Part shown: positions 3,677 through 11,690 of the stretch, piece after piece | Position numbering within the stretch: position 1 is the stretch's first letter | Layout: every line of letters starts with the position of its first letter | Assembly (NCBI RefSeq): GCF_000153205.1 | Contig: NZ_CH672427.1 | Coordinates: 3,402,596-3,466,595 of the forward strand | Direction: 5' to 3' | Source of the DNA: Nitrococcus mobilis Nb-231 | GTDB lineage: Bacteria > Pseudomonadota > Gammaproteobacteria > Nitrococcales > Nitrococcaceae | DNA length: 64,000 bases | The notes under the pieces: generated by a model | What the model was told of the DNA's origin: nothing | The model's database searches: none | Seen by the model: the letters and a program-made list of their open reading frames with translations, nothing else | Position numbers and translations under genes: made by a program

Positions 3677-4084
3677 CTAAAAAGGGTTCCATACAAGGAG
3701 CCCTTCATACCGGCTGTCATGTTGCATATCTTCGCTAAGCAACCGGTCGCAATCGCCCGTGACGGCTGTCTGAATGATCAGTGCATCCCAAAAAGACAGT
3801 GAGTATGCTCGGTGCAGGGCAATGCCAGCGAGTATTATCTCCACCGAGACTTCTATGACCTCGTTGCGGGCGAATTCGCGCACGCAGCGTTCCGCCACGT
3901 TGCTCGCAAGGCCTATTTTGCGCAGGGCTATATTGTAGAACTCCTTGAGCACCTGCGTGCTGGTAACTATTTCACCGGTGCGTGCCAACTCTAGGAGTAT
4001 TCTCCGCGAGGCGTCACGCTTGCTGGGCTCGCTGGGGTCTACCGAATAGACCAGCACGTTGGTATCAACGAAAACGCGCGTCAT
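3677..4084 (-). CDS. vapC: VapC-type PIN-domain toxin
   Basis: A 135-residue PIN-domain ribonuclease, the toxin of a type II module. I start it at ATG 4084 (MTRVFVDTNVLVYSVD), which puts the first catalytic Asp in the usual place and gives a 20-bp overlap with the antitoxin gene. Longer starts add non-conserved residues. PIN acidic residues are visible in VFVDTNVLVY, LKEFYNIALRK, SFWDALIIQTA and CDRLLSEDM. The C-terminal LLVWNPF is typical of this family. The toxin is expected to cleave RNA and to be neutralised by the product of the upstream gene at 4065-4313. All motifs are intact, so it is likely functional. Confidence 0.9.
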   Translation of the reverse strand: MTRVFVDTNVLVYSVDPSEPSKRDASRRILLELARTGEIVTSTQVLKEFYNIALRKIGLASNVAERCVREFARNEVIEVSVEIILAGIALHRAYSLSFWDALIIQTAVTGDCDRLLSEDMQHDSRYEGLLVWNPF

Positions 4085-4313
4085 CGTATGCGTCCTCGCG
4101 CCGCCAGTTGCGCCCACCTAAGCGCTCCCGGTCGGCCAGACTGGCATCGACATCCTGGAATAAATCGTGCAGCGCGCCGCTGCGCTGTTGGCCGACGTCG
4201 GCGTAACGGGTCAAAAACTGGCGAAGCACTTCGTTTACCGATGTGCCCTGCTCCAACGCACGCATACGGGCTGCCTTGACGATATCGTCACTGACACTGA
4301 TGGTTAAATTCAT
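4065..4313 (-). CDS. vapB: VapB-type antitoxin (ribbon-helix-helix / DUF6364-like)
   Basis: An 82-residue protein starting MNLTISVSDDIVKAARMRA. The N-terminus has the ribbon-helix-helix pattern: a beta strand (NLTISV) followed by DDIVKAARMRALEQGTSVNEVLRQFLTRYA. The C-terminal half is polar and disordered-looking and should wrap around the PIN toxin. It is translated first and overlaps vapC by 20 bp, giving the usual antitoxin-toxin coupling. A 19-bp palindrome 16 bp upstream of the start codon is a plausible autorepression operator. Confidence 0.85.
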   Translation of the reverse strand: MNLTISVSDDIVKAARMRALEQGTSVNEVLRQFLTRYADVGQQRSGALHDLFQDVDASLADRERLGGRNWRREDAYDDARFR

Positions 4314-4328
4314 TGCAGTTATCTCGTG

Positions 4329-4347
4329 CTACACTGAATCAGTGTAG
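4329..4347. promoter_or_regulatory. Palindromic operator upstream of vapBC
   Basis: CTACACTGA, one A, then TCAGTGTAG: perfect 9-bp arms around a single base, ending 16 bp before the vapB start. Its place and symmetry match operators bound by ribbon-helix-helix antitoxins. Binding is inferred, not shown. Confidence 0.6.
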
Positions 4348-4393
4348 TCAGTTTCTCGCGCAGCAGCAATCCGCAAGTAAGCTTGCGGCTCAA

Positions 4394-4414
4394 AACGGGT
4401 CAGGCGTTGTATTT
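4394..4414. repeat. Left 21-bp inverted repeat flanking the RAYT gene
   Basis: AACGGGTCAGG, two variable bases, then TTGTATTT. The reverse complement recurs at 5389-5409 with only the two central bases different. It lies 28 bp before the RAYT start codon. See the matching finding. Confidence 0.7.
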
Positions 4415-4442
4415 ATAAAACTATGCTGCTAGCTTTTTCTGT

Positions 4443-5411
4443 ATGCCTCGCCCGCTACGCATAGAGTTGGAAGATGGCTTCTACCATGTCATGAATCGCG
4501 GCCGCGGGCGGGCGCCAATCTTTCATAGGCCCGCCTACTACCAAACCTTCCTGGATACGCTGGAAGAAGCCCATCGACGCTTCGGCCTGGAGGTCCACGC
4601 CTACTGCCTGATGGGGAATCATTACCACCTGTTGGTGCGCACCCCGCGAGGCAATCTCAGCCGGTGCATGCGTCATGTCAACGGGGTCTATACGCAGCGC
4701 CACAATCGGCTGCGCAGGACCGACGGGCCGTTGTTCCGGGGCCGATTCAAGGCGATTTTGGTGGAGGCGGACGCCTACCTTCTGCAATTGACACGCTACG
4801 TACATCGAAACCCGATTGAGGCGCGGCGAGCGCTGGTGAATGAGCTGGCGGCGTACCCTTGGTCGAGCTACCCGGCTTACTTGGGCCAGGCTACGGCGCC
4901 GGAGTGGCTGTATCAGGAGTTTACCTACCGGTTGTTGAACAGCCGCGAGCGATATAGCGGTTACCGGCGATACGTAGAGGCGGGCGTTGATGAGGAGACG
5001 CAAGCGTTCTATCGGCGAGGCCGCTTATCTCCGGTGTATGGGAGCGACGCCTTCAAGGCGCGGATGCTTGCCTCGGGGGGTTGGGAGAACGCCAGCCCAG
5101 AGCGGCTACGGCGGCAGGTGTACAGACCGCCGGAGTTGAAGAACATTTTAAGCGTAGTTGCCGCACACCACGGCCTGCGGCAGGCGGAGCTGACTGAGGG
5201 CGGCCGCGGGAAGCGGAATCAGCCGCGAGTCGTGGCGATGTACTTATGCCAGGAAGTGGGTGGCCTATCCCTGCAAGTCATTGCAAAGGCATTTGGGGTG
5301 CGTAGCGAGAGCGGGGTGAGCCACCAAATTGGGAAGCTGCGGCGGGAGTTGGCAGACAATCCAGATCTTAGAAATGATCTAGAAATGCAAATACAATACC
5401 TGACCCGTTAG
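4443..5411 (+). CDS. REP-associated tyrosine transposase (RAYT, Y1 family)
   Basis: A 322-residue, apparently intact RAYT. The Y1/HUH transposase core spans roughly residues 1-150, with the HUH motif in AYCLMGNHYHLLVRTPRGNL. GPLFRGRFKA, LQLTRYVHRNPIEARRA and AYPWSSYPAYLG follow, all typical of TnpA-REP proteins. The C-terminal third looks like a DnaA/helix-turn-helix-type DNA-binding domain (VVAMYLCQEVGG, LQVIAKAFGVRSESGVSHQI, then GKLRREL), which marks the long-RAYT subgroup. Such enzymes nick single-stranded DNA at REP-type sequences. The gene is stand-alone, flanked by a near-identical inverted repeat whose right copy overlaps the last codons. It lies inside the island bracketed by IS ends. 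Confidence 0.9.
   Translation: MPRPLRIELEDGFYHVMNRGRGRAPIFHRPAYYQTFLDTLEEAHRRFGLEVHAYCLMGNHYHLLVRTPRGNLSRCMRHVNGVYTQRHNRLRRTDGPLFRGRFKAILVEADAYLLQLTRYVHRNPIEARRALVNELAAYPWSSYPAYLGQATAPEWLYQEFTYRLLNSRERYSGYRRYVEAGVDEETQAFYRRGRLSPVYGSDAFKARMLASGGWENASPERLRRQVYRPPELKNILSVVAAHHGLRQAELTEGGRGKRNQPRVVAMYLCQEVGGLSLQVIAKAFGVRSESGVSHQIGKLRRELADNPDLRNDLEMQIQYLTR
5389..5409. repeat. Right 21-bp inverted repeat flanking the RAYT gene
   Basis: AAATACAA, two variable bases, CCTGACCCGTT: the inverted partner of 4394-4414 with 19 of 21 positions matching. It overlaps the 3' end of the RAYT frame and so encodes its final residues (IQYLTR). Confidence 0.7.
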
Positions 5412-5480
5412 TTCGTTATTCAACTGTAGCAGCTCTGTCGCTCTCATCGCGCTCCCTCCAGCAAGAGGGACAATGAGAAC

Positions 5481-5527
5481 CGGACAGATTGTGTGCTACA
5501 ACTCCGGACAGTTTATCTGCTCCTAAC
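5481..5527. repeat. IS-end-like sequence, right (inverted) copy
   Basis: CGGACA at 5481-5486, TGCTACAA (complement of TTGTAGCA) just after it, CCGGACA at 5504-5510 and CTAAC at 5523-5527. Read on the minus strand this has the same order and nearly the same spacing as the IS end at 2685-2732. It has no transposase next to it. Confidence 0.55.
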
Positions 5528-5570
5528 ACGCATCTTGACAGCAACAGGATCGAGCATCATGATGCGTAGT

Positions 5571-5837
5571 ATGCGAACCACAGTCACACTTGAGCCAGAC
5601 GTCGCGGCCAAGCTCAAAGAGCTGGCGCATCGGCGGCGTGCGTCGTTCAAGGAGACGCTTAACGACGTCCTCCGCAAGGGGTTGACGTCACAAGCAAAGG
5701 CCGGGCGGTCGGAACCCTTCGTGGTCAAACCTCACTCCGGCGGGTTTCGCCCTGGCATCGATCCGGATAAGCTCAACCAACTCCTCGACCAGCTCGAAGT
5801 CGAAGATTTTTCCGGTGAGGCTCGCTCGGCGGAATGA
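5571..5837 (+). CDS. vapB: VapB-type antitoxin
   Basis: An antitoxin of 88 residues from ATG 5571 (MRTTVTLEPDVAAKLKELAH). Nearby in-frame ATGs at 5559 and 5562 are also possible, and AGGAT at 5546-5550 suits 5559 better. I prefer 5571 because homologues begin MRTTVTL. The N-terminus is a CopG/ribbon-helix-helix segment (TVTLEPDVAAKLKELAHRRR, then ASFKETLNDVLRKGL). The Pro/Gly-rich C-terminus (KPHSGGFRPGIDPDKLNQLL) should contact the toxin. Its stop overlaps the vapC start by 4 bp (ATGA), which implies translational coupling. The promoter probably lies within or next to the IS-end sequence at 5481-5527. Confidence 0.85.
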   Translation: MRTTVTLEPDVAAKLKELAHRRRASFKETLNDVLRKGLTSQAKAGRSEPFVVKPHSGGFRPGIDPDKLNQLLDQLEVEDFSGEARSAE

Positions 5838-6268
5838 TCGTTCCGGACGTCAATCTTCTAATTTACGCCTACAACACTGACGCGCCGCACCACTCCGACG
5901 CTAAAGCGTGGTGGGAGGGTCTACTGAGCTCGGAGGAGCCAGTGGGACTACCTTGGGCGAGCGCTCTCGGATTCATTCGCCTAATGACGCATCGCGCGGT
6001 GCTCGTGATGCCGGTGGAGCCGAGTCGTGCAGTCGAATACGTTCGCTCCTGGCATAGCCGGTCCAATGTGAGCGCCTTGGAGCCGGGACCGCGGCACCTG
6101 GAACTACTCGATGGCTTGTTCGCTGCGCTCGGCACGGCAGGTAAGCTCACGACTGATACGCACCTAGCCGCTCTCGCGATCGAGCACCAGTGCGTGCTCT
6201 GCTCCAACGACGGCGACTTCGCTCGCTTTCCGGGCTTGCGCTGGCGCAATCCGCTCAAAGCCGAATAG
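5834..6268 (+). CDS. vapC: VapC-type PIN-domain toxin
   Basis: A 144-residue PIN-domain ribonuclease toxin that overlaps its antitoxin gene by 4 bp (ATGA). Catalytic acidic positions are in MIVPDVNLLIYAYN, PWASALGFIRLMTHR, TTDTHLAALAIEH and SNDGDFARFPGLRW, which belongs to the VapC subgroup with a central GFIRL segment and a TDxHLAALA helix. All elements and the length are normal, so the module is likely functional. It is distinct in sequence from the vapC at 3677-4084. Confidence 0.9.
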   Translation: MIVPDVNLLIYAYNTDAPHHSDAKAWWEGLLSSEEPVGLPWASALGFIRLMTHRAVLVMPVEPSRAVEYVRSWHSRSNVSALEPGPRHLELLDGLFAALGTAGKLTTDTHLAALAIEHQCVLCSNDGDFARFPGLRWRNPLKAE

Positions 6269-6554: not shown

Positions 6555-9500
6555 TCAACCCTCCTGTCGTAATAGCAAGGCCACCGGTAGGCACCGGAAA
6601 AGCTCGGTCGCGGCGAAGCAAGCACCGCTCTCTGCTTCATCGGCAGCGATGTACTCGCCGGTCAGCGCATTGAGATAGCGCCCGCCAGTCGGGGCTTCGA
6701 CCCAGGTATCTGCCCAAGGCGATTCGCCGCTTGCAAGTCCCTCGCTTGCGGCCGCAAGGCGGGCGAACCAGCGGCCGGTGGCGACCACGGCCACTTCCTC
6801 AGCATGCCCTCGTGCGAAGGCACAAATATGCGCGGCCCGCTGTCCTTGCGTGTCGAGCGCCTGATAATCGCCGTGCTGAAACAGCGCCCGATGGCGCTGC
6901 CGCAATAGCAAAGTTTGCCGGGTGAGGTAGAGCTTCAAGCGGCCGTCTTCGAGATTTTCCAACAGGCTCGCTAGCCGCTCGAGGGTATCGGCTGCGCCGA
7001 TTGTTATGGTGCGCACCTCGCCGAGCAGCCGCTCGCGGTATGCGTAGTCCACGCTTCGGCGATTATCGGGGTCCACCAGGCTGAAATCCCAGAGCTCGTT
7101 GCCCTGGTAGATATCCGGCACACCCGGCGAGGTCAGTTTGAGCAATGTCTGGGCGAGGCTATTGAGTAGCCCGTAGCGGGTAATCGGCTTGATGAAGGTA
7201 CGCAAGTCGCTGAGAAACGGATTGTCCTGCAGCGAGGACAGAACTGCGCGCACGAAGTGCACGGCCGCCTCCTCATAGGCCGGGTTCGGATTCAGCCATG
7301 AACTGTGCATCTTGGCTTCCCGGATAGCTTTCAGCAGGAAGGCTTCGATGCGCTCGCGAAACACCTCGAGCTCGGCATCGGTGCGCAGATCGAGTGGCCA
7401 GGCCCCGGCCAGCGTCTGGTAAAACAGGTATTGGTCATTGCGCGACGGTGCCGGCGCCGTATCAATCGTACGCCGCTTGGTTCGGTTCATGCGCCGCCAG
7501 CGCGCAAGCCGTCCGCGCCAAGCCGCCGGCAGCTCGGTGAGTACGTTGATGCGGGCGCGCACGTCCTCGCTGCGCTTGTTATCGTGTGTGGAGGTGGCGA
7601 GCAGGGCGTGAGGCCAGCGCCGGCCGTGCTCTTGATTGAAATGGTGAAAGGCGGCGACCGACACGCCGAAGCGGCGTGGATCGCCGCCTACCTCATTGAG
7701 CGAGATCAGGCGGTTGTAGATGTAGAACGCGGTATCCTCGAGCCCTTTGGCCATGACCGGCGCCGTGTACTGCTGGAGTTTAAGCGTGAACTGCAAGGCT
7801 TGTTGCCGTAGCGCCGTGGGCCACGACGACTCGCCTTCGAGCAGCATGAGCGCGCGAATGAAATCGAAGACTTCGGCACCGGTCGCAGGACTGCGTTTTT
7901 TTGCCTGGGCGATCGCCCAGTCGACATAGCGCCGATCCTCGTTGCTTACACCCGTTTCGCTGACATACGTTCGATAAACCGGGAAGCAGGCGACGATCTC
8001 GGTAAGCGCATCGCGCAGGCCGTTCAGAGTGTAGTCGCGGGTGCGCCAGTTGGCCTGAGCGATACGATCGAGCCGATTGGCCAACACGGTGAGTTCGCTT
8101 GAAAGATGAACTCGGATGATGAGTTTTTTGCAGTCATAGAGCAGCTCGTCGAACTCGAGCCGCTTGCCGATGAAGCGTTGATAAATGCGCTCGAAGGCCT
8201 GTTCGGCCGGTGCATACACGAACAAGGCGTTGACGGTCTGGGCGAAATCGTAGCCGGTGGTGCCGGCGACCGGCCAGTGCTCGGGCAGATGCTCGTAACC
8301 GGCCAGGATTTTCTCCACTACCAAGTAGGGCTGCAGCGTCCGTTGGTCAGTTTCGCCAAGTAGTGGTATTGCCTTTGTCTGCAGCCGTTGCGCGAGCGCC
8401 TGGCAGTAGCACAGCGGATCATAGAGGCCGTCCGGGTGGTCGATGCGCAGGCCGTTGACCTGGCCATTTTCGATCCACTCGAAGATGCGCTGGTGCGTGG
8501 CTTCGAATACTTCCGAGTTTTCCATGCGCAGAGCCGCCAAATCATTCACGTCGAAAAAGCGCCGGTAATTGATCTCATCGGCCGCCACCTGCCAATGGGC
8601 CAGTCGATAGGCCTGGCGCTCGAGCAAGCCATGCAGCGGCGCAAAGCTTTCCGGCTCGCCGCTGCGGCCGCAGAAAAACGCCACATTGCCAGCCAAGAAT
8701 TCGCCCACTGCGGGCGCATGCTGGCAAAGCCATGCGAGACGGCGTTTGCAGACCTCCTTTTCGCGTAGCCGTTCCTCCCGTGCTGCAGCATCCGTTGTCT
8801 CTCGCGAGGGCAGATGGCCGAAAGCGGTGATGATGCTCTGTAGCTCTGTGAGGCTCGCCTGGTCATCGCCGAGGCGCTGTGCCAAGCGCTCGAGGTGTAA
8901 TCCGAGGACATCAGGGTAGGCCGTGGGATCGATGGGGAAACGGTGTTCGTGGTAGGAGATGCTGAGCTCGCCCTGTTCGACTAGAAGTTGCAGACGCAGA
9001 TCACCCGCTTCGAGCGCGTCTCCGTAAGGCGCGCCGAGCACGGGCAGCAGCACCTTGCCGCGCAACTCCTCCTTGACTGGCCGCCAGTCGATGTCGAAGT
9101 ACTCGGCGTAGGGCGAAGCCCGGCCATTCTCCAGCACGTCCAGCCACCAGCGATTGTCGCTGCCCATCACGCCCATGTGATTCGGGACGATGTCGAGGAT
9201 CTGACCCATCCCGTGCCCGTGCAACGCCCCGACGAAGCGCTCGAAGTCTTGATCGTCGCCGAGCTCGGGATTGAGCGCCGTGTGGTCGATGATGTCGTAG
9301 CCGTGGGCGCTGCCCGAACGGGCCTTGAGGTAGGGTGAGGCGTAGCAATGGCTGATTCCGAGGTCGTGTAGGTAGGCCACCAATTGGGTGGCTTGGGCGA
9401 AGGTGAAATCACGATTGAACTGTAGACGGTAAGTGGCGGTCGGTACGGCCGAAGCCGCGTCCTTGCCGAGTGCCGCAGCCGATTGCGGCGCGGATGGGCG

Positions 9501-11690
9501 TTCGCCGCGCAGCGCTGCGCACAGCGCCACGAAGCGGGTATCTTGCGACCAGGCCTCGAGCGGAACCGGGAGCCGGCGGCGCCAGTTCGGATGCGCGTCG
9601 ACGGTACCGGGCAGATTGACCTGTTCCACGCAATCGAATACATCCTCGGGTTGCACCGCCATGAGACGGGCGGGCGTTCGCGCCATGAAGCGATGGATTG
9701 CGCGTATGAGCGGGTCGGTCATCTCCGGGAGTAGCACCGGGTCCACGTCGAGCCCCTCGGGGAGCAGATTTTCCCGCTGCAGCGCGAGCAGCAGCCGGGC
9801 CCGGTCTTGGGCGCGGCCGACGATCTGTTCCTCGCGGTGCTGCTCGGTTGGGAATAGGTTGAAGTGCTGGCGCAAGGCGAGGTCATGGCCGAGCCAGAAG
9901 CCGGCGAGTGTGGGAAGGTCGTGCGTGGTGATCGCCGCCAGAGCCTGCTCGGGGTAGTGCTCCGGGCGTTTGAACTCGCCATTGTCGTCGCGCTCGAAAT
10001 ATAAGATCCGGTAGGAGAGCACACCGAGCGGGCCGAGCGTGTCACGCAGGGTCTCCGGCAGAGTGCCCAAATCCTCGCCGATGACCAGGCAGCGGTTGCG
10101 TTGACTCTCGAGCGCCAGGATCCCGAGCAGATCGTCGACCGGATAATGCACGTAGGCACCCTCGGCCGAAGTGGCTCCCGGCGGCACCCAAAACAAGCGC
10201 ATGAGCGCCATTACATGATCGATGCGCAGTGCGCCGGCGTGGCGCATGTTCTGCCGGAGTAGCGCGATGAAGGACGCATAGGCCTGTTCGCGCAGGCGCT
10301 CGGGCACCAGGGGGGGGAGCCCCCAGTCCTGGCCCTTTAGATTGAAATCGTCCGGTGGCGCGCCGATACTGACGTCAGTCGCATACAAGGCCTGCTCGGA
10401 CCAGACGTCGGCGCCCGCCCGATCGACGCTGACCGCGAGGTCCTGATACAGCCCTACGCCCAGTCCCAACTCATCGGCACGCCGGCTGACCGCCGCCAAT
10501 TGGCGATCGGCTTGCCACTGCAAATATTGGAAAAACTCCACCCGCTCGCGTTGATCGAGGGCGAATTCGGCGACCGCGGGGGCGTTCGGGTCTCGATACG
10601 CTGCGGGCCAGGCGGGCCAGCCCCAGATGGCCGTATCCTGTTGTTGGAAGTGCGCCTGCAACGCCTGGTAGCGAGCGAAGTGTTCCAGAGTTTCGCCGCC
10701 GGCGGCTTGAAAGCTCCGAAAGGCTTGCCCACGTGTGCTCTCATGCAGCAAATGCCGGCGGCGGAAATCGGCATAGAGCCGCTCCAGAACCGCCACTTTG
10801 AGTGCCCAGATCGCCGGATAGTCGACGAGCGGGGCATTTTGTAACGCCGCGAGCTGAGCCTGGTATTCGGGCGCGGCGATGAGTTCGCGGGCGGCGGCGC
10901 ATTCGTCGAGTTCGGGAATGACTTCGATATCGAGATAGAGTACATTGTGGAACAGCCGGCTCGACGGGCTGTAGGGGCTGGCGTGAGCCGGATTGTGCGG
11001 AAAGAGACTGTGCAGCGGATTAACTCCGACGAAATCTGCTCCCACCGTGTGGCACAGCTCGATCATATGCCGTAGGTCAGTGAAATCGCCGATCCCAGCG
11101 TTACGGTGTGAGTGCACGGCATAGAGCTGTACGGCCAGTCCCCACCAGCGGTTTTCGGCGTCGAGCGCAGGCGGTCGGTAGCAAGTGGCCGGCGCGCTGA
11201 TCAGCGCCATTTCGGCCCGGTCCAACTCGTCTGCACGGGTGAGGTGCAAGCGATGGTAGCCGGGCTGTGGGGTCAGATCCGGGGCGAAGGCGTAGCGACG
11301 GCAGTGCTTGCCATCGACCTCGCGCTCGGCGAGCACCGCCAACGTTTCGGTACGAAGCTCGCCGCGGTGTTCTGAACCACCCTCAGTCTGCAGCCGCCAG
11401 TGCAAAGCAATTCCTTGCGGTTCGGCCGCGAGTGTAATGGGAATTTGCAGCGGTTGCGGGCCTAGGCGGTGAACCCAGACCGGCGGCAGCAGCCGGCGCC
11501 AGGGGCCGAGTTCGCAATCGGCAAGCGCCGCATGCAGCTGTGCCGGGTCCGCAATTGCAAGCCCCATGGCTGTGAGCAAGGCGCGTTTGGTTGCAGCCGA
11601 GATCGAGTGTGTTTGCCCCCACACATCAGTGTAGTCAGACGCGATGCCGCAGAGCTCCGCCAGCCGATCGAGTGCCTCTTGTTCGTGCAT
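6555..11690 (-). CDS. Fused 4-alpha-glucanotransferase / maltooligosyltrehalose synthase (MalQ-TreY)
   Basis: A 1711-residue fusion. Residues 1 to about 735 are a GH77 amylomaltase that disproportionates maltodextrins: nucleophile in ALRIDHVMAL (near 489), acid/base in VIGEDLGTL (near 538) and TTHDLPTLAGFW (near 588). From about residue 746 (VPTATYRLQFNRDFTF) it is a GH13 maltooligosyltrehalose synthase, which turns the reducing-end glucose into a trehalose unit: LRIDHPDGLYDP (near 1078), VVEKIL (near 1126) and STHDNKRSED (near 1368). A short Ala-rich linker (SAAALGKDAASA) joins them. Both active sites look complete. It is the last gene of the leftward operon and starts 9 bp after treZ with a GGAG site. 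In most bacteria malQ and treY are separate genes. Confidence 0.95.
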   Translation of the reverse strand: MHEQEALDRLAELCGIASDYTDVWGQTHSISAATKRALLTAMGLAIADPAQLHAALADCELGPWRRLLPPVWVHRLGPQPLQIPITLAAEPQGIALHWRLQTEGGSEHRGELRTETLAVLAEREVDGKHCRRYAFAPDLTPQPGYHRLHLTRADELDRAEMALISAPATCYRPPALDAENRWWGLAVQLYAVHSHRNAGIGDFTDLRHMIELCHTVGADFVGVNPLHSLFPHNPAHASPYSPSSRLFHNVLYLDIEVIPELDECAAARELIAAPEYQAQLAALQNAPLVDYPAIWALKVAVLERLYADFRRRHLLHESTRGQAFRSFQAAGGETLEHFARYQALQAHFQQQDTAIWGWPAWPAAYRDPNAPAVAEFALDQRERVEFFQYLQWQADRQLAAVSRRADELGLGVGLYQDLAVSVDRAGADVWSEQALYATDVSIGAPPDDFNLKGQDWGLPPLVPERLREQAYASFIALLRQNMRHAGALRIDHVMALMRLFWVPPGATSAEGAYVHYPVDDLLGILALESQRNRCLVIGEDLGTLPETLRDTLGPLGVLSYRILYFERDDNGEFKRPEHYPEQALAAITTHDLPTLAGFWLGHDLALRQHFNLFPTEQHREEQIVGRAQDRARLLLALQRENLLPEGLDVDPVLLPEMTDPLIRAIHRFMARTPARLMAVQPEDVFDCVEQVNLPGTVDAHPNWRRRLPVPLEAWSQDTRFVALCAALRGERPSAPQSAAALGKDAASAVPTATYRLQFNRDFTFAQATQLVAYLHDLGISHCYASPYLKARSGSAHGYDIIDHTALNPELGDDQDFERFVGALHGHGMGQILDIVPNHMGVMGSDNRWWLDVLENGRASPYAEYFDIDWRPVKEELRGKVLLPVLGAPYGDALEAGDLRLQLLVEQGELSISYHEHRFPIDPTAYPDVLGLHLERLAQRLGDDQASLTELQSIITAFGHLPSRETTDAAAREERLREKEVCKRRLAWLCQHAPAVGEFLAGNVAFFCGRSGEPESFAPLHGLLERQAYRLAHWQVAADEINYRRFFDVNDLAALRMENSEVFEATHQRIFEWIENGQVNGLRIDHPDGLYDPLCYCQALAQRLQTKAIPLLGETDQRTLQPYLVVEKILAGYEHLPEHWPVAGTTGYDFAQTVNALFVYAPAEQAFERIYQRFIGKRLEFDELLYDCKKLIIRVHLSSELTVLANRLDRIAQANWRTRDYTLNGLRDALTEIVACFPVYRTYVSETGVSNEDRRYVDWAIAQAKKRSPATGAEVFDFIRALMLLEGESSWPTALRQQALQFTLKLQQYTAPVMAKGLEDTAFYIYNRLISLNEVGGDPRRFGVSVAAFHHFNQEHGRRWPHALLATSTHDNKRSEDVRARINVLTELPAAWRGRLARWRRMNRTKRRTIDTAPAPSRNDQYLFYQTLAGAWPLDLRTDAELEVFRERIEAFLLKAIREAKMHSSWLNPNPAYEEAAVHFVRAVLSSLQDNPFLSDLRTFIKPITRYGLLNSLAQTLLKLTSPGVPDIYQGNELWDFSLVDPDNRRSVDYAYRERLLGEVRTITIGAADTLERLASLLENLEDGRLKLYLTRQTLLLRQRHRALFQHGDYQALDTQGQRAAHICAFARGHAEEVAVVATGRWFARLAAASEGLASGESPWADTWVEAPTGGRYLNALTGEYIAADEAESGACFAATELFRCLPVALLLRQEG

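Follow-up and report, generated by a model that had tools for sequence, protein, structure and literature searches.

The element and its gene

The window, that is the whole 64,000-nt stretch of the Nitrococcus mobilis Nb-231 genome analysed here, carries at 4394–5411 a single gene set between a pair of inverted repeats (Table 1). A sequence-only reading had described an intact long RAYT between two 21-nt inverted copies, the right one lying inside the coding end, and this description holds: the coordinates of the arms are exact and they match at 19 of 21 positions, the Y1/HUH gene is intact and ends in a DnaA-domain-IV-like C-terminus, and its stop codon overlaps the right arm, with the last two bases of the TAG falling beyond it.

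Table 1. Features of the element, in window coordinates
Feature	Position	Strand	Evidence and remarks
TIRYT gene, 322 aa, Y1/HUH nuclease with DnaA-like C-terminal HTH	4443..5411	+	Intact ORF, Pfam, fold
Y1_Tnp domain, residues 14–122, HUH and catalytic Tyr119	4482..4808	+	Pfam PF01797, E 2.1e-10
Bac_DnaA_C domain, residues 233–298	5139..5336	+	Pfam PF08299, E 1.2e-11; residues 281–305 track end sequence
Left terminal inverted repeat AACGGGTCAGGCGTTGTATTT	4394..4414	+	G run 4397–4399; begins 49 nt before ATG
Right terminal inverted repeat, reverse complement AACGGGTCAGGTATTGTATTT	5389..5409	-	Codes for the last protein residues
9 nt outside left G run, GCTCAAAAC	4388..4396	+	Overlaps outer AAC of left arm; matches position of relatives' A/purine-rich leader; putative function
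9 nt outside right C run, CGAACTAAC read inward	5407..5415	-	Overlaps outer AAC of right arm; includes stop TAG 5409–5411

Both domains score above their Pfam cut-offs (44.9 bits against 31.5 for Bac_DnaA_C). The AlphaFold model, built on 46 aligned sequences, has a mean pLDDT of 91, and its best match among solved structures (E 3.5e-6) is 4er8, in which a RAYT holds a REP hairpin, followed by the IS608 and ISDra2 transposases and, lower, by DnaA domain IV on DNA (3pvp and 1j1v, TM-score by target 0.86–0.89). The HxH motif (H60-Y-H62 in the window protein) and Y119 are present in all 46 aligned proteins, the window's included, and Pfam recognises Y1_Tnp in 46 and Bac_DnaA_C in 44 of them. On the window protein the NCBIfam models REP_Tyr_transpos (66.3 bits, cut-off 80) and transpos_IS200 (13.4 bits, cut-off 55) both remain below cut-off.

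In its own genome the element stands alone. Searching the whole genome for GGGTCAGGNNTTGTATTT with up to three mismatches returned 25 matches, of which two were perfect (the end pair itself), none had one mismatch, three had two and 20 had three, against nine for the reversed control; at this tolerance the arms occur at the 4394–5409 locus only and no solo ends were found. The DNA of the gene likewise occurs in one place only, with no second copy in the genome, and the word GGGGTCA[AG]G or its reverse occurs 27 times in the 1.99 Mb examined outside the window, about the number that we estimate for chance (~30). A distant second Y1-like protein stretch is present in the same genome (L363:7034-7465, at about 647 kb of G000:C1), with 38.6% identity to the protein of another Nitrococcus locus, L123.

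Conservation of the ends among relatives

The ends were compared across 80 loci in GTDB contigs, the best among 421 related ones; by title most of them come from Gammaproteobacteria and the others from Nitrospirota, Deltaproteobacteria, Acidobacteria, Planctomycetota and further groups. With the window included, 78 of 81 loci have an end that bears a G run, giving 134 ends, and 56 loci have both; the three loci without a usable end were left out. Seven of the 80 were too short for the inverted-repeat scan, and 11 ends whose G run is only 2 long were dropped from later counts. The run is four G long in 92 of the 134 ends, the window having CGGG rather than GGGG. Among 69 left ends it begins 45–49 nt upstream of the ATG in 47, and in 19 of 56 right ends, including the window's, the stop codon ends no more than 6 nt outside the C run.

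In the 50 loci where both ends have G runs of 3–5, the left and right ends of one element are 0.80 identical at nt 6–20 after the run, compared with 0.44 for ends of different elements (highest of 2000 permutations, 0.532), and the agreement drops near background about 25 nt in. As the ends of an element match each other far better than they match those of other elements, the repeats belong to the element; relatives carry element-specific inverted ends of ~25 nt, and the window pair, with an identity of 0.68 across the 25 nt that follow the G run, is more than chance. Within the window, the ungapped score (+1/−2) of the pair is 15; in 1000 dinucleotide shuffles of the 220 nt surrounding each end, the score averaged 7.7 and never exceeded 12. 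When 4143–5711 is aligned with its own reverse complement, the top score of 16 belongs to a single palindrome, CTACACTGAATCAGTGTAG at 4329–4347, and the end pair is the best among separated arms, 40 shuffles of the stretch reaching at most 14. That one palindrome can outscore the pair by a point is what speaks for a chance likeness of the two arms; set against the shuffles, and refuted by an inverted arrangement that is kept in relatives, such a coincidence has a practically negligible likelihood.

Relatives of the protein are patchily distributed, with matches in 49 of 398 phylum-wide genomes, 16 of 95 relatives and 6 of 22 genomes of one genus, counts in which the query genome is included each time and many matches cover the Y1 part alone. 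No stretch matching the patterns of the protein's relatives was found in viral contigs, and plasmids yielded one partial match to the protein at E 1e-30, in Legionella. Two further Nitrococcus loci, L283 (G398) and L123 (from a MAG), have identical flanks and an end of the type TCTAGTA, unlike the window's, which means that the units differ even within the genus. They are flanked by the end of a gene that we take to be rng and the start of one that is presumably yhdP, a pair without a counterpart in the 1.99 Mb of the N. mobilis Nb-231 genome examined. Together, these patterns indicate that the units are patchy and probably spread horizontally, and that the window unit was probably acquired in this way.

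Copies, solo ends and empty sites

The proposal that the window holds a transposable unit of about 1.0 kb gains its support from the family, through copies, solo ends and one empty site, whereas the host of the window unit has a single copy and the solo copies sought there with the arms were not found. In a Thiotrichaceae MAG (G461), three copies of 1006 bp are 99.5–99.7% identical and have different left flanks; two of them (L158 and L161) have their right flank in common, so recombination or strain mixture contributes to these near-identical copies. The pattern GGGGTCAARTCN{0,2}TTG, searched for in the genomes from which 30 of the 80 loci come, gave 148 matches in 20 of them against three for the reversed pattern, a sum over rows made by us that includes the gene-flanking ends. 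Of these, 31 fall in a Coxiellaceae MAG (G476), where many are end doublets without a gene, in the form of GGGG...CCCC doublets of 58–64 bp, units of ~127–197 bp and minimal palindromes of 20–21 nt. The repeat is thus kept with the gene and also occurs in solo copies among relatives, contrary to the refuting case in which neither would be seen.

One of the doublets, the 60-bp L151 of G476, can be compared with an empty site common to two relatives. The empty site reads GTATATCTAAAATCGTTA; G476 has GTATATCTA, then 76 nt (AATTT, the doublet and GTAAATTTTTT) and then AAATCGTTA. Any target duplication therefore measures at most 2 nt (AA, within an A run), and 5 and 11 extra nt lie between the host sequence and the G runs. 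When six G476 sites were set against G505, G506 or both, L151 alone was clean; at L149, L154, L156, L139 and L148 the intergenic DNA is replaced in the relatives, and the remaining sites of the flank query, in which L150 was represented by 267 of 380 nt and L155 was left out, gave matches that were too far apart or one-sided. Empty-site comparison, as suggested by the sequence-only reading, accordingly worked in one case, a relative's solo doublet. Among the sites compared, none was an empty site of a full-length element, and a search with the left flank of the window element (3677–4393) gave no empty site for it, only short matches in five of 58 other genomes. Near-identical copies at differing places, solo end-doublets and one empty site together suggest that units of this family move.

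Three further candidates were set aside. The left flank of L085/L206 recurs uninterrupted elsewhere in its genome, the match ending 9 nt short of the G run, and the right side does not match; L076 appeared to be inserted inside a phosphatase-kinase gene, and its left flank reads as another gene (identities by reading); and the direct repeats flanking L216 and L217, which resemble short target duplications, were not used because both ends lie beside putative integron-type repeats. L216 and L217 (G495) are themselves solo truncated ends next to those repeats, and L217 interrupts, at GGCTACAA, a gene that we assume to encode an IS91-type transposase.

Relation to known systems

Elements of this kind were named TIRYT or TIRtrons by Di Nocera et al. 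(2013; PMC3733652), being RAYT-like genes between terminal inverted repeats. The inverted repeats that had seemed odd around a RAYT-like gene are consequently the feature for which the subgroup is named (PMC3733652; PMC6006769), and the window unit belongs to this already described kind, as a TIRYT/TIRtron and a probable member of TnpA_Y1 subclass 2.1.2. As described in PMC3733652, TIRtrons share with it a Y1 RAYT-like gene and long terminal inverted repeats that are unrelated to GTAG REPs; some of these repeats keep about the same spacing to the gene, others overlap it, and certain genomes also have them solo, as dimers or in groups. The paper gives the motif GGGGWSAS for some TIRs only, and the window has CGGGTCAG in its place, identical at 7 of 8 positions. 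Quentin et al. (2018; PMC6006769) assigned 20 of 26 of the Di Nocera examples to subclass 2.1, with a DnaA-like or other HTH, and tentatively equated this subclass with TIRYT; their subclass 2.1.2 has, like the window unit, a long RAYT-like protein, a DnaA-like C-terminal HTH and no REPs nearby. The role of the DnaA-like domain in this large subclass was left open in the same paper, which suggests that the HTH either may have no part in target recognition or has acquired a new recognition sequence. PMC3733652 does not contain the terms 'empty' and 'target site', and the consulted portions of both papers mention neither host-flank copies, in clusters or otherwise, nor a link between the repeat and the HTH or another protein segment. 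These were the only two papers found for the term TIRYT, and among the titles listed in further literature searches none dealt with DnaA-type RAYTs.

Other Y1 systems are less close. The RAYT/REPtron (TnpA_REP) has the same Y1 fold, as the match to 4er8 indicates; the window gene differs in its extra DnaA-like domain, in arms that are unrepeated in the genome and in having no GTAG-footed hairpin beside it, a scan limited to perfect stems having found none with a GT[AG]G foot and at least six pairs within 300 nt of either side of the gene. The IS200/IS605 elements IS608 and ISDra2 also have the Y1/HUH fold, and the target duplication of no more than 2 nt at L151 resembles theirs, whereas the window ends are inverted repeats rather than two subterminal hairpins on one strand (see also PMC6006769), and the extra nucleotides at L151 are a further difference. 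The shorter G476 doublets have the architecture of a REPIN, an inverted REP doublet, but are TIRtron ends bounded by GGGG...CCCC and not by GTAG.

Which domain reads the ends

Distances between ends (nt 1–22 after the G run) were compared with distances between protein segments for the 39 of 46 proteins with a usable left end, residues encoded by the right repeat being excluded. By Mantel tests, which correct only partly for shared ancestry, the left ends correlate with HTH residues 276–300 at r 0.50, with residues 232–275 at 0.25 and with the Y1 domain at 0.20. The partial correlation is 0.36 (p 0.001) for the DnaA-like domain (232–300) given Y1, and −0.03 for Y1 given the DnaA-like domain, and the bootstrap 95% range of the whole-domain difference is 0.09 to 0.31. 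For right ends the values are 0.58 (HTH) and 0.20 (Y1). Once proteins more than 65% identical are removed (32 elements), the HTH gives 0.38 and Y1 0.15 with a difference range of −0.05 to 0.28, so that this reduced set is only suggestive of an advantage for the HTH.

A 25-residue sliding window peaks at 281–305 (0.50), spanning the helix 289–305, which we read as the putative recognition helix, with secondary values of 0.30 at 49–73, around the HUH motif, and 0.33 at 201–233. At the peak, control DNA gives 0.02 (leader), 0.05 (outside) and 0.22 (inside). The link with the left end cannot arise from shared sequence, because that end lies ~1 kb from the HTH codons. Classes can also be distinguished by eye: ends with TCAARTCTTGA go with HYST[VI]SQTI, those with TCAAGTxxCTTG with H[AVI]GSVSFITHQ, and those with TCAAGTCTAGTA with SYASA. 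In the window, TCAGGxxTTGTATTT is paired with the helix RSESGVSHQI, without the commonest HY and with no close companion in the compared set.

Because end sequence tracks the HTH more than the Y1 domain, these data suggest that the DnaA-like HTH reads the ends, and the notion of a recognition site for a RAYT subgroup with a DnaA/HTH-like domain finds support, at the level of the family, in this covariation. Between the two options offered by Quentin et al., the covariation favours an HTH that has evolved to recognise a new sequence over one without a role in targeting. The natural pairing of distinct end sequences with distinct recognition helices opens the role to direct study through domain swaps and binding assays, and would provide a natural specificity table for a DnaA-type HTH.

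Sequence outside the ends

Among the 120 ends with 100 nt of flank, the purine fraction outside the G run is 0.50–0.56, rising to 0.66–0.67 in the last 9 nt, where A exceeds T (skew 0.44–0.46). The 77 ends without outer copies have similar values in these 9 nt (purine 0.64–0.68, skew 0.32–0.47), and the last flank bases common to the left and right of one element average 1.44 nt against 0.99 (permutation, 0.0005).

Further out, the flanks of many ends contain truncated copies of the end. The outer 100 nt of the 134 ends hold 64 GGGTC words, spread over 48 of them, compared with 12.3 after shuffling (maximum 18); 60 remain, in 44 of 123 ends, once the 11 whose G run is 2 long are set aside, in which the word may be the end itself. 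The bases before an outer GGGTC agree with the flank of their own G run for 5.2 nt on average, compared with 0.8 nt for other elements. If a copy is counted when at least 4 nt of flank are in common, 43 of 73 adjacent copies, in 30 of the 123 ends and 26 loci, are tandem repetitions of flank plus truncated end; the other 30 fall below this threshold and were left out. Their common flank measures 4–13 nt (median 7). The truncated ends stop 2–5 nt past the G run in 27 of the 43, the other 16 running from 6 to at least 56 nt, in a tally that requires GGGTC and to which shorter stubs are invisible by construction. At L171 (G462:C10), a RAYT-like gene has an array of many such units on either side; each array repeats the flank of its own side, so the copies arose in place. 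The window element has no flank copy with GGGTC, and the TAACG/TAAC repeat of its right flank is too short to claim as one. These duplications are a footprint of events at TIRtron ends in nature, and either enzyme-primed copying or host slippage could make them.

Proposed mechanism and alternatives

Taken together, we consider it likely that 4394–5411 is a ~1.0-kb one-gene TIRtron whose HTH reads the repeats and whose Y1 domain cuts near the GGGG. Its protein combines a Y1/HUH single-strand nuclease with a DnaA-domain-IV-like HTH, and terminal inverted repeats of ~25 nt bound the unit. On the strength of the covariation, the DnaA-like recognition helix would read nt 5–22 of the repeat at both ends; the Y1 domain would cut a single strand near the GGGG end, which would yield a 5'-phosphotyrosine and a 3'-OH, and would join the cut end to an A/purine-rich site. 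Less surely, the 3'-OH may sometimes be extended along the end and rejoined, yielding the tandem copies of flank and truncated end. In its own genome the unit is single and intact.

Two alternatives concern the function of the repeat. It could be mainly an operator through which the DnaA-like domain represses its own gene, the gene being domesticated rather than mobile: the left repeat begins 49 nt before the ATG and the corresponding spacing of relatives is narrow (45–49 nt in 47 of 69), the window genome has a single copy, and Quentin et al. (PMC6006769) describe most Y1 subclasses as lacking typical IS features. An operator would account poorly for a repeat that is also kept at the other end of the gene, where it co-varies with the left one, for gene-less doublets, one of them with an empty site, and for near-identical whole units at differing places, and as the main function it is quite improbable; autoregulation may nevertheless exist in addition to mobility. 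Alternatively the repeat could be a degenerate REP: on single-stranded DNA, Y1 would recognise a small hairpin, GTCAA-loop-TTGAC, that follows a GGGG guide, and the HTH would be accessory, a model likened to REPtrons and IS608. Here the hairpin test, on 66 left and 56 right ends, is relevant: of 59 non-redundant left ends, 44% can form a stem of at least four pairs, compared with 11% after shuffling (maximum 24%), which ignores shared ancestry, with loops of 3 (18 ends), 5 (3), 8 (4) and 11 nt (1). The guide logic is known for REPs (PMC8266576), the best fold match is a RAYT–REP complex, and the small target duplication at L151 fits single-strand chemistry. The window's own ends, however, form no more than three pairs, one of them G–T, the correlation of end sequence with the Y1 domain vanishes when the HTH is taken into account, and no perfect GT[AG]G-footed hairpin of six or more pairs was found within 300 nt of the gene; a degenerate REP is unlikely.

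Two others concern the tandem copies. Tandem duplication by replication slippage is general, and the host could make the copies without a transposase if replication stalls at a bound or folded end and slips back; the stopping point of 27 of the 43 copies, 2–5 nt after the G run and at the foot of a possible hairpin, agrees with this. Slippage sits less easily with a common flank that stays at 4–13 nt however far the truncated end runs (2 to at least 56 nt), with the filler bases present, and with the A/purine-rich 9-nt zone that marks a similar distance. We give it somewhat less than an even chance, and as it covers the duplications alone, it is compatible with the TIRtron explanation. The enzyme-driven counterpart, nick-primed end copying, is doubtful and put forward tentatively: the HTH would dock on the repeat, Y1 would nick ~9 nt outside the GGGG, and the 3'-OH would be extended for a variable length and rejoined. 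Extension would often stop at GGGGTCA, and each round would add one unit of flank and truncated end and seed solo ends elsewhere. The 3'-OH released by HUH enzymes can prime replication or attack the phosphotyrosine, and PMC8266576 names both as possible routes of REP spread. If true, end copying would be a copy-out amplification of ends, unlike the single-strand cut-and-paste of IS200/IS605 and unlike REP dispersal, with the target chosen by an HTH of the replication-initiator type.

Neighbourhood of the element

The element lies between two toxin–antitoxin-like pairs, at 3680–4313 (−) and 5562–6268 (+), and a PIN-domain protein is encoded on each side (PF01850, E 2.2e-14 and 9.1e-11); the left pair includes a ribbon-helix-helix antitoxin match below cut-off, and the partner in the right pair has no Pfam match. 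The palindrome at 4329–4347, which is near-perfect, perhaps serves the left pair as an operator. A 7-bp hairpin, CCGCAAG-TAAG-CTTGCGG (4371–4388), lies just outside the left repeat, with no second copy in the 1.99 Mb of genome examined. The outer 9 nt of the repeat, AACGGGTCA, recur at 4205–4213 inside the neighbouring antitoxin-like gene, which may be chance. Similar stretches of the form (T/G)TGCTACAA..CCGGACA... at 2677–2721 (−) and 5492–5536 (+) are possibly the remains of another insertion sequence, and 6555–11690 (−) is a single gene of 1711 aa in which a 4-alpha-glucanotransferase (GH77) is fused to an alpha-amylase-type domain.
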